A stretch of DNA of 33,739 bases from Candidatus Curtissbacteria bacterium RIFCSPLOWO2_02_FULL_40_11 (GTDB lineage Bacteria; Patescibacteriota; Microgenomatia; Curtissbacterales; GWA2-41-24): assembly GCA_001776505.1 (NCBI GenBank), contig MFBV01000014.1:1-33739 (forward strand), written 5' to 3'. The notes under the pieces are model-generated. The model made no database searches. It saw only the letters and a program-made list of their open reading frames with translations, and had not been told where the DNA came from. A program made the translations under genes and the position numbers. Positions 4,769 to 9,833 of the stretch are shown one piece after another. Position 1 is the first letter of the stretch, and each line of letters begins with the position of its first letter.

Positions 4769-5602
4769 ATGCATAGTATTTACGCTAAAAGCTTAAAGCC
4801 TAAAGCCAAACGCTTGGTATATTTCTCTATATTCATAATCATGCTTTTAGCCTTCAGCATTAAGCATTCAGCCAACACCTACGGCCAAACTCCTTTTGAA
4901 AAGACTAAAGAGGAATACTCAATCCAGCTAAAAAAATATAATCTTGCAAGAAATAATTATTTAACGAAAAAAGCAAACTATGAAGCATTTAAAACGGCTA
5001 CGGCAAAAAAAGAAACATTTGAAAGTACCAAAAGTTACCTTATTGAGATTAATTTTCTATTAGCAGATAAGCTGCGACTAGTAAAAGAATACGGAAATTC
5101 TATTGATTGGGAAAATTCAAATTACAACAAGAATGAATTATTGACACTTTTAGATGAAGAACTAAGCTATCTTCAAAACCATTGGGCTGATGTAGATAAA
5201 ACTACTGCCCTTGAACAACTTCCGCCCTTAGCTCAAGAATTAAAAGACAGACTCAATACAACAATAGTTGCTAAAACGGACAAAAATATAGGCGCCTATG
5301 AACTTGTCAGCACGGAACGAGCGCACGCAAATTCTAATAGCCTAACGCAACAAATTAAAAATTATATTAATCCGCTATCAAACGATAACAATAGGGCAAT
5401 AATTAATAATTGGGATTCGGAAATTGACTCTGTTAATCAAAATATACAGCTAGATATCGATAAAGCAAAATTAGAATTCGAAAAAATTTCAATTGAAAGA
5501 AAATCATCAAGAGTTAACAACGTTATCGAAGCTACTAAAGGAGCCAGAGCAGAATTGGAAAAATCTTTAGATCTATATAGAGAAATTTTACGAATAATAT
5601 GA
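4769..5602 (+). CDS. hypothetical exported/membrane-anchored coiled-coil protein
   Basis: ORF with N-terminal hydrophobic segment (LVYFSIFIIMLLAFSI) and charged helical remainder. Confidence 0.6.
   Translation: MHSIYAKSLKPKAKRLVYFSIFIIMLLAFSIKHSANTYGQTPFEKTKEEYSIQLKKYNLARNNYLTKKANYEAFKTATAKKETFESTKSYLIEINFLLADKLRLVKEYGNSIDWENSNYNKNELLTLLDEELSYLQNHWADVDKTTALEQLPPLAQELKDRLNTTIVAKTDKNIGAYELVSTERAHANSNSLTQQIKNYINPLSNDNNRAIINNWDSEIDSVNQNIQLDIDKAKLEFEKISIERKSSRVNNVIEATKGARAELEKSLDLYREILRII
4784..4878 (+). repeat. two 7-bp-period repeat arrays in opposite orientation over a signal/TM-coding region
   Basis: gctaaaa|gcttaaa|gcctaaa|gccaaac|gcttggt (4784-4818) and cttttag|ccttcag|cattaag|cattcag|ccaacac (4844-4878). 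Confidence 0.6.
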
Positions 5603-7269: not shown

Positions 7270-7509
7270 ATGACCGACGCTAAACAGAAAATTGTAGAAA
7301 AATACTACATCGAAATTACGCCAAGCTGGAAAAAAAGATTTTTAATTTCTTTCGCAGGTGGCATAGGATGGGGACTGGGCGTACTCGTTAGTTCAACCAT
7401 AATAATTGCGATAATTACTTACTTTATTTCAAAAATAGATTTTATTCCTATTTTAGGCCAGTTTCTTAACGACATTACCACTTCTTCTACATCCACACCC
7501 TCCAATTAA
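7270..7509 (+). CDS. small membrane protein, DUF5665-like
   Basis: SFAGGIGWGLGVLVSSTIIIAIITYFISKIDFIPILGQFLNDI. Confidence 0.65.
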   Translation: MTDAKQKIVEKYYIEITPSWKKRFLISFAGGIGWGLGVLVSSTIIIAIITYFISKIDFIPILGQFLNDITTSSTSTPSN

Positions 7510-8711
7510 TGTTAAAAAATAAATTAAAAGATCATAGGGAAATCGCTCGCGAGATGGATCTTTTTTCATTCCATGAATATGCCCCGGGTGCGATTTTTTG
7601 GCATCCCAAAGGTTTAAAAATTTATCATATTTTAGAAGATTTTATCCGCAAAAAAACTGAAAACGAAGGATACCGGGAAATCTCCACACCGGTTATTGTC
7701 AAAAGCGAACTTTTTAAAAAATCAGGCCACTGGCAACATTTTGGAGAAAATATTTTTAGCCTAAAAGTTGATGACGAAGTGTATGCCCTAAAACCCATGA
7801 ATTGCCCTGAATCTACATTAGTATTTTCTGCACACACACGTAGCTATCAAGACTTACCCCTGAGGCTTAGTGAATTTGGTATTCTACACAGAAACGAGCT
7901 ATCAGGCGTTTTAGGCGGTGCGCTGAGAGTTCGCCAGTTTACCATCGATGATGCTCATATTTATGTTACTCCTGAGCAAATTCATGACGAAATTATAAAG
8001 TTAATTTTAATGACGATTGATGTTTACAAAACTCTGGACTATAAACCCCGCTTCTATTTAGCAACACGCCCAGAAAAGGCTATGGGAAACACGAAAAGCT
8101 GGCAGCAAGCCGAAAAATCACTCGAAAAGGCCCTAAAAAGTACAGGAGTCGATTTTTCTATAAAACCTAAAGAAGGTGCCTTCTATGGACCAAAAATCGA
8201 CATCCATATACTTGATTCACAAAAAAGGGATTGGCAAATGGCAACAATACAACTGGATTTTCAAATTCCGGAAAGTATGCAACTTAGCTACGTTGATAAA
8301 GACGGCGCAAAAAAGCGACCCGTTATGATCCATAGAGGTATTTTTGGCTCTCTCGAAAGATTTATTGGCATACTTATAGAACACACGCAGGGCAAACTTC
8401 CACTATGGCTAACACCCACTCAAACAATTATAATGCCCATTACTAATAAGCAAAACGCCTATGCAAAGAAGGTTGTAACTTCCCTAATAAAAGCGTCGAT
8501 TCGCTCTCAACTTGACGAAAGAAACGAAACTCTCCAGGCAAAAATCCGAGATGCTATCTTGCAAAAAATACCCTACCTAGTTATCGTAGGAGAAAAAGAA
8601 GAAAAGGCTAATTTAATCACAGTCCGAACCAGAGAAGGTAAAAATTTAGAAAAGCAGAAAGTTTCGAGTTTTATTAATAGACTAGTAAAAAAGATTGAAA
8701 ACAAAAGTTAG
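7509..8711 (+). CDS. thrS: threonyl-tRNA synthetase, catalytic plus anticodon-binding domains only
   Basis: DLFSFHEYAPGAIFWHPKG, KPMNCPES, VRQFTIDDAHIY, MIHRGIFGSLERFIGIL; Zn ligands Cys/His/His present; begins where the catalytic core normally starts. Confidence 0.93.
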   Translation: MLKNKLKDHREIAREMDLFSFHEYAPGAIFWHPKGLKIYHILEDFIRKKTENEGYREISTPVIVKSELFKKSGHWQHFGENIFSLKVDDEVYALKPMNCPESTLVFSAHTRSYQDLPLRLSEFGILHRNELSGVLGGALRVRQFTIDDAHIYVTPEQIHDEIIKLILMTIDVYKTLDYKPRFYLATRPEKAMGNTKSWQQAEKSLEKALKSTGVDFSIKPKEGAFYGPKIDIHILDSQKRDWQMATIQLDFQIPESMQLSYVDKDGAKKRPVMIHRGIFGSLERFIGILIEHTQGKLPLWLTPTQTIIMPITNKQNAYAKKVVTSLIKASIRSQLDERNETLQAKIRDAILQKIPYLVIVGEKEEKANLITVRTREGKNLEKQKVSSFINRLVKKIENKS

Positions 8712-8760
8712 TTCATGTTAACATCTTCAAACTTAAATTATTCTTTCAAGGAGGTAGAAG

Positions 8761-9408
8761 GTAGCTAAGCAGTATAGATTAAATCAACAGATAAGAGCAT
8801 CTGAGATTCGCCTAATTGATGATAAAGGCAAACAACTGGGAATAATTCCGCTAACGGAAGCATTTAAAAAAGCCCAAGAAAGTGAACAGGATCTAGTTGA
8901 AATCGCGCCTGATGCCAAACCTCCAGTAGTAAAAATAATCGATTTTAAAAAATTCAAGTATTTAGAAGAAAGGAAAAAGAAAGAAGCCAGAAAAAAAACT
9001 AAAGAAATCGAGCTGAAAGAGATCCGCTTTTCTCCGTTTATTGGGAAGCATGATTTGGAAACAGGATTGAAAAAAGTAAAAAAGTTTCTTTCCGAGGGAG
9101 ATCTTGTTAAAATAAGCATCGTCTTCAAAGGCAGACAAATGGCCCACACTGAGTTTGGGCCTAAACTTTTAGAAAAAATACTATCTGAGTTGGGTGAAAA
9201 CGTTCAAAAGGAAAGAGATTCAAAGTTTCATGGTAGACGCTATGTAACAATAATAAAACCCGTAAAAACCAGCCAAAATAAAAGGGAAACAACAAAAGAT
9301 GAAACTAAAAACAAAAAAGGCAGCAGCGAAAAGGTTCAAAATAACTCCAAAAGGGAAAATCCTCAGGGGTCGCCAGATGAGCTCACACCTAAAAGCAGCA
9401 AAAAGTAA
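8761..9408 (+). CDS. infC: translation initiation factor IF-3 with non-canonical start codon (GTA 8761 proposed)
   Basis: In-frame VAKQYRLNQQIRASEIRLIDDKGKQLGIIPLTEAFKKAQ...VKISIVFKGRQMAHTEFG...YVTIIKP. In-frame TAG at 8755-8757; no ATG/GTG/TTG until TTG 9055; SD AAGGAGG at ~8748-8754. Confidence 0.88.
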   Translation, partial: VAKQYRLNQQIRASEIRLIDDKGKQLGIIPLTEAFKKAQESEQDLVEIAPDAKPPVVKIIDFKKFKYLEERKKKEARKKTKEIELKEIRFSPFIGKHDLETGLKKVKKFLSEGDLVKISIVFKGRQMAHTEFGPKLLEKILSELGENVQKERDSKFHGRRYVTIIKPVKTSQNKRETTKDETKNKKGSSEKVQNNSKRENPQGSPDELTPKSSKK

Positions 9409-9490
9409 AAGCGCAAGAGGGAGATATAAGAGAACAGCGCTAGTTTCACCTTCCCAGAAAAAAAATATAGCCAGGTTATTAGCAAGCTAA
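9299..9490 (+). CDS. rpmI: 50S ribosomal protein bL35
   Basis: MKLKTKKAAAKRFKITPKGKILRG...KSKSARGRYKRTALVS. Confidence 0.93.
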   Translation: MKLKTKKAAAKRFKITPKGKILRGRQMSSHLKAAKSKSARGRYKRTALVSPSQKKNIARLLAS

Positions 9491-9491
9491 C

Positions 9492-9833
9492 ATGAGAATA
9501 AAAAGAGGTGTTACAACCAGTAAAAGACACAAAAAAATACTTAAAGCCGCAAAGGGGTTCCGCGGAGGCCGCTCCAAGCTTTACAAACAAGCTCGTGAGG
9601 CAACTATCCATGCTGGCGCGGATGCCTACCGCGGTAGAAAAGAAAAAAAAAGACAAATGCGCTCTCTTTGGATCACTAGAATTAATGCAGCTTTAAAAGA
9701 GCACAACATTTCTTATAATCAATTTATAGCCAAACTCAAAAAGAAAAACATTGAACTTGATCGGAAAATTCTCTCACAAATCGCACTCGAAAACCCGGAT
9801 ACCTTCGAGAAGATTGTCAAGAAAGTCATTTAA
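9492..9833 (+). CDS. rplT: 50S ribosomal protein bL20
   Basis: MRIKRGVTTSKRHKKILKAAKGFRGGRSKLYKQAREA...RRKEKKRQMRSLWITRINAA-like. Confidence 0.96.
   Translation: MRIKRGVTTSKRHKKILKAAKGFRGGRSKLYKQAREATIHAGADAYRGRKEKKRQMRSLWITRINAALKEHNISYNQFIAKLKKKNIELDRKILSQIALENPDTFEKIVKKVI

Follow-up and report, generated by a model that had tools for sequence, protein, structure and literature searches.

The window, by which we mean the whole 33,739-nucleotide stretch analyzed here, comes from a genome of Candidatus Curtissbacteria and carries infC, the gene for translation initiation factor IF-3 (IF3), downstream of thrS and directly upstream of rpmI and rplT, after which comes pheS (Table 1). The identity of the gene is secure: the product matches TIGR00168 with 184.6 bits (cut-off 60) over profile positions 3-169 of 170, and both IF-3 domains are present (PF05198, 101.2 bits; PF00707, 92.6 bits). 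The source genome (938 kb, 45 contigs, 94.8% complete) contains this single IF3 gene; a second one with a normal start was ruled out, none being found in that genome.

Table 1. Features of the infC locus in the window
Feature	Position	Strand	Basis or remark
thrS, threonyl-tRNA synthetase (catalytic part), upstream of infC	7509..8711	+	TIGR00418, 510.9 bits, profile positions 168-564 of 565
Putative infC promoter: TTGAAA, 18-nt spacer, extended -10 (TG + TAACAT)	8695..8724	+	Promoter scan
Shine-Dalgarno AAGGAGG	8748..8754	+	Read from sequence; (A)GGAGG in 12/12 relatives
In-frame stop TAG closing the frame two codons ahead of the start	8755..8757	+	Read from sequence
Proposed infC start codon GTA	8761..8763	+	GTA/GTC/ATA at the aligned column in 12/12 relatives
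infC, translation initiation factor IF-3, 215 aa	8761..9408	+	TIGR00168, PF05198, PF00707
rpmI (L35)	9299..9490	+	TIGR00001; ATG lies within infC, 110 nt from its end, in a different frame
rplT (L20)	9492..9833	+	TIGR01032

Two observations on the neighboring genes can be recorded here. The product of thrS has 400 aa and its N-terminal part is missing; in other bacteria this part holds the TGS and editing domains. At the other end, rpmI overlaps infC by 110 nt (9299-9408) in a different frame, and the C-terminal tail of IF3 in the overlap, a low-complexity sequence, is an out-of-frame reading of the beginning of rpmI. An overlap of 17-110 nt is found in seven of 12 family members and the genes lie apart in the other five; translation of rpmI is possibly coupled to that of infC.

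It is the start of infC that deserves attention. The region reads ...TTTCAAGGAGG TAG AAG GTA GCT AAG CAG TAT AGA TTA AAT CAA CAG ATA..., with AAG at 8758-8760 between the stop codon and GTA. The first in-frame ATG, GTG, or TTG is TTG 9055, the 100th codon of the frame, and a start there would cost the protein its whole N-domain; a longer protein is impossible in the window because of the TAG two codons upstream of GTA. The first-pass annotation of this DNA had claimed just this absence of a canonical start between TAG and TTG 9055, and the coordinates agree exactly. Its second point, a strong Shine-Dalgarno sequence 6 nt ahead of GTA, is borne out too and extends to the relatives.

The putative promoter overlaps the 3' end of thrS (the scan found one such element where 0.5 were expected), and inspection by eye showed extended -10 elements resembling TGnTAnnAT in much the same location ahead of infC in most other family members. 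With transcription expected to begin near 8731, the leader would be about 30 nt long and unstructured; across the infC start, its folding was no better than that of shuffled sequences (z 0.9).

The family sample comprised 15 genomes, which is the whole order as sampled, and infC was found in 12 of them. (The remaining three, G006, G012, and the 96% complete G011, yielded neither an IF3 N-domain nor a C-domain, probably because of assembly gaps.) The codon aligned to GTA 8761 is GTA in eight genes, GTC in three (L003, L010, and L012), and ATA in one (L007). All 12 carry GGAGG or AGGAGG 5-8 nt ahead of this codon, and its distance to the conserved N-domain is constant. The codon before it varies freely (AAG, CAG, AAA, ACC, GAA, GCC, or GCT), and amino acid conservation sets in at the start codon itself. 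A canonical ATG, GTG, or TTG near the N-domain is absent from all 12. If the column held an ordinary valine, finding GTA or GTC at 11 of 11 valine codons would have a p near 0.001, given a genomic usage of GTT 39%, GTA 29%, GTC 23%, and GTG 9%; this is a rough figure, as the species are not independent. Every one of the 12 codons mismatches the anticodon CAU at the third position, and 11 have G at the first. The typical AUU, AUC, or AUA start of infC lies one base from AUG; with G at position 1 as well in 11 of 12, the Curtissbacteria gene is thus a variant and not a typical autoregulated infC.

Relatives had been named as the place where the earlier proposal, that GTA is a different solution for infC, could fail. 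They show neither a canonical start further upstream in another frame nor ATG or ATT at the site, and they support the proposal with GTA or GTC and one ATA instead. Judged by this comparison, the proposed GTA/GTC start is conserved clade-wide and is not a sequencing error. This clade-wide spread, the alternation of GTC with GTA, and a change of IF3 in the same clade (see below) go beyond the first-pass annotation.

The sister families place this change. In the IF3 tree, Curtissbacteria form a single clade (support 100/97) among families f3, f18, f20, and f30, whose 25 infC genes start with ATA (13), ATC (5), ATT (2), CTG (3), or TTG (2), and never with GTA or GTC. Most of the 25 have a clear Shine-Dalgarno sequence and start at essentially the same site (for L250 and L254, the start was taken one codon further on). 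Because these starts coincide, the aligned site marks infC initiation throughout this part of Microgenomatia, and on the aligned sequences G at the first position is a change made in Curtissbacteria. Beyond these four families and Curtissbacteria (f1), infC genes of Microgenomatia have no Shine-Dalgarno sequence. Their nearest in-frame starts, TTG, GTG, or ATG, are probably used and sometimes lie close downstream of a TATAAT-like element. Leaderless or short-leader initiation, with loss of AUU-type control, is possible in these genes.

We also surveyed starts more widely, setting about 194 kb of the source genome against a 640 kb contig from a second Curtissbacteria genome. This gave 116 conserved genes that do not overlap, and of these infC alone had no canonical start in both genomes. 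Two further genes were flagged, which proved truncated or only partly matched; trmD (21896 in the window) was considered as a second case and rejected, as it has a GTG start. A small conserved gene of about 85 aa, on the minus strand of L302 (G000:C13; reverse-complement positions 5059-5317), probably begins with ATA after AGGAGGTGA in the source genome; the relative G010 has ATG there. If its ATA is used, poor starts in the source genome are rare but not unique to infC.

What would have to read such a codon? The 3' end of 16S rRNA, GGATCACCTCCTTT, is intact in the source genome, so that a lost anti-Shine-Dalgarno can be rejected. The initiator tRNA (G000:C9:2863-2933; L197 1989-2060) has C1xU72 and a CTCATAA loop with anticodon CAU, which disposes of an initiator whose anticodon had been altered to match GUA. 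Opposite this anticodon, the first base of GUA can form only a G-U wobble and the second a U-A pair, whereas the third is an A/C mismatch. The anticodon stem is unusual, with A29-U41, G30-C40, and G31-U39 instead of three G-C pairs. Every one of the 12 initiators seen in Curtissbacteria has this stem; so do most other Microgenomatia families examined, and it was found in members of about a dozen of these (survey loci L228-L239 and L308-L337). In the sample of other Patescibacteria, the stem is A-U/G-C/G-C or G-C/G-C/G-C, except for one (G280) with A-U/G-C/G-U. To our knowledge, initiator tRNAs that lack three consecutive G-C pairs are known only from mycoplasmas, where the C-terminal tail of uS9 changes along with the tRNA. 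In Escherichia coli, a changed 30-40 pair lowers discrimination against a non-canonical start (PMC11497404). By analogy, a permissive initiation background in Microgenomatia is plausible. The stem alone does not explain GTA, and we reject it as the specific cause, because families with AUA starts share this nearly class-wide feature.

The source genome also has a tRNA-Ile with anticodon UAU (G000:C18:5992-6064; L200), which would read AUA directly; such a tRNA is unusual in bacteria, most of which rely on a modified CAU.

The factor itself has changed as well. At the position that we take to be Lys110 of E. coli IF3, all 12 Curtissbacteria proteins have G, A, Q, or N. A basic residue stands there in 61/61 IF3 proteins of other phyla, 28/29 of other Patescibacteria, and 76/91 of other Microgenomatia (0/12 in Curtissbacteria). 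Of the other C-domain residues considered for 30S binding, R129 is likewise replaced in 12/12 (by V, I, H, or N), as it often is in the rest of the phylum, and R133 and R168 are retained in 12/12. The K110L form of E. coli IF3 is described as deficient in 30S interaction in PMC12297416, which cites De Bellis 1992 for it. Families f6 and f13 have also lost the basic residue and have no GTA start; their infC genes are without a Shine-Dalgarno sequence, with TTG or ATG as the probable start. Loss of the residue therefore does not force GUA, and the link between position 110 and GUA rests on one evolutionary event.

Our preferred reading, to which we assign a probability of about 0.72, is that infC starts at a weak GTA (GTC or ATA in relatives) under autoregulation by IF3. 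A strong Shine-Dalgarno sequence would position the GTA (GTC in some species and ATA in one), which the ordinary initiator tRNA (CAU) would read as fMet. Plentiful IF3 would destabilize the start on GTA and scarce IF3 would let it through, so that the level of the factor would be kept matched to that of ribosomes, just as with the AUU of E. coli. Both initiation at GTA and its repression by IF3 we infer from sequence. A start at GUA or GUC probably has a lower basal strength than the AUA or AUC of the sister families. The step from AUA leaves in place the mismatch sensed by IF3 at the third position, and adds a wobble pair at position 1. The weaker codon may compensate for an IF3 that has no basic residue at 110 and might bind less well. 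Against this reading stand the very poor performance of GUA as a start in E. coli and the probable AUA start of the L302 gene, by which poor codons would serve initiation outside infC too.

A rival account accepts the GTA/GTC start and dispenses with the feedback, which would be lost or irrelevant, a fixed low level of IF3, set simply by the weak codon, being tolerated in a permissive initiation system. The initiator tRNAs of the class, with their A-U/G-C/G-U stems, would suit it, as would the probable AUA start of the L302 gene, and the change at residue 110 could have weakened IF3 binding. What speaks against it is the persistence of the third-position mismatch in 12/12 genes even as the codon varies, although GTG or ATG is just one change away; moreover, a poorer Shine-Dalgarno sequence would fix a low level equally well, yet this sequence is strong in all 12. 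We consider the account improbable, though not negligible.

Initiation under IF3 control at GTA must also be weighed against a start elsewhere in the frame. The in-frame ATA 8791, which would give a shorter protein, is a near-cognate codon of the type used by other infC genes. The first-pass annotation rightly placed it in frame; a role as start is another matter, for it encodes the invariant isoleucine I11 of the IF3 N-domain, has no Shine-Dalgarno sequence nearby (AAGGAGG is 36 nt away), and would forfeit the conserved N8 and Q10. The codon before GTA fares no better, being unconserved and only 3 nt from the Shine-Dalgarno sequence. Either of these starts seems to us quite unlikely.

Less likely still is entry into infC by +1 frameshifting from an upstream frame (ATG 8715, 17 codons, TAA 8766-8768), an idea suggested by the overlap of a frame having its own ATG with the site in the window. 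That ATG, the only one nearby, overlaps the putative extended -10 element at 8716-8724 and so probably falls outside the transcript, upstream of its expected start; it has no Shine-Dalgarno sequence, and no upstream frame is conserved in relatives. Finally, a sequencing or assembly error, conceivable in a metagenome assembly of 45 contigs, is excluded for practical purposes because 12 genomes from several unrelated metagenome projects agree in this arrangement, and a dead gene copy is scarcely credible for a full-length frame without stops that is the sole IF3 gene of its genome.

How the GTA start under IF3 feedback came about is a separate question, on which we are more tentative. The combination of weaker start codon and changed factor could mean that the former offsets a weaker repressor. 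Going further, a family-wide GUA start may have co-evolved with an IF3 lacking the basic residue, so that the loop was re-tuned on both sides; we think this possible, at somewhat less than even odds. A causal link between codon and residue 110, with its order of events, is our conjecture, and the switch to GTA could be drift between equally weak starts.

There are practical and wider consequences. Since translation table 11 does not list GUA as a start codon, infC of Curtissbacteria genomes is missed or cut short by gene callers. The presence of GUA and GUC in the gene of the very factor that polices start codons indicates how far such a codon can drift with its third-position mismatch kept, and Curtissbacteria infC can be regarded as a natural experiment on the balance between IF3 strength and start-codon strength.

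Mycoplasmas offer one point of comparison. Ayyub and coworkers (2018) reportedly described non-AUG starts in mycoplasmas whose initiator tRNAs are of the A-U/G-C/G-U type. The source genome shares these three anticodon-stem pairs with them; unlike the mycoplasma case, the change is nearly class-wide in Microgenomatia, including families whose infC starts with AUA.

As regards novelty, a paper of 2018 stated that all known natural non-AUG starts lie one base from AUG (PMC6200909). The only functional GUA start demonstrated was a laboratory mutation of E. coli recJ (PMC6200909), which, as that paper relates, was suppressed via mutations of IF3/infC (Haggerty and Lovett 1997). To go by its account and by the title of Haggerty and Lovett, that start is of low efficiency and IF3-sensitive. 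Curtissbacteria infC has the GUA in common with the recJ mutant and differs from it in being natural. In the papers that could be searched (most subscription papers and arXiv lay outside this scope), we found no description of a natural GUA start; an arXiv survey by Gvozdjak and Samanta of genes preferring non-AUG starts is known to us as cited in PMC9845219. A natural GUA start thus appears undescribed. GUC is already natural in Streptomyces sigR, which is repressed by IF3 and was presented by its authors as the first documented GTC start (PMC5472188, 2017). Curtissbacteria infC resembles sigR in having a natural GTC start in some species, the IF3 discrimination having been shown for sigR; it differs in that sigR encodes a sigma factor, and in that here the gene is infC and GTA predominates.

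The closest parallel is infC itself. The E. coli gene starts with AUU and is autoregulated by IF3, Streptomyces infC starts with AUC (PMC5472188), and AUU, AUC, and AUA starts were all seen among Bacillota examples. Like the E. coli gene, Curtissbacteria infC uses no canonical start, has a third-position mismatch, and is preceded by a strong Shine-Dalgarno sequence. Unlike it, the Curtissbacteria codon departs twice from AUG, with G in first place, and serves an IF3 without the basic residue at 110, under a feedback that we infer by likeness to E. coli.
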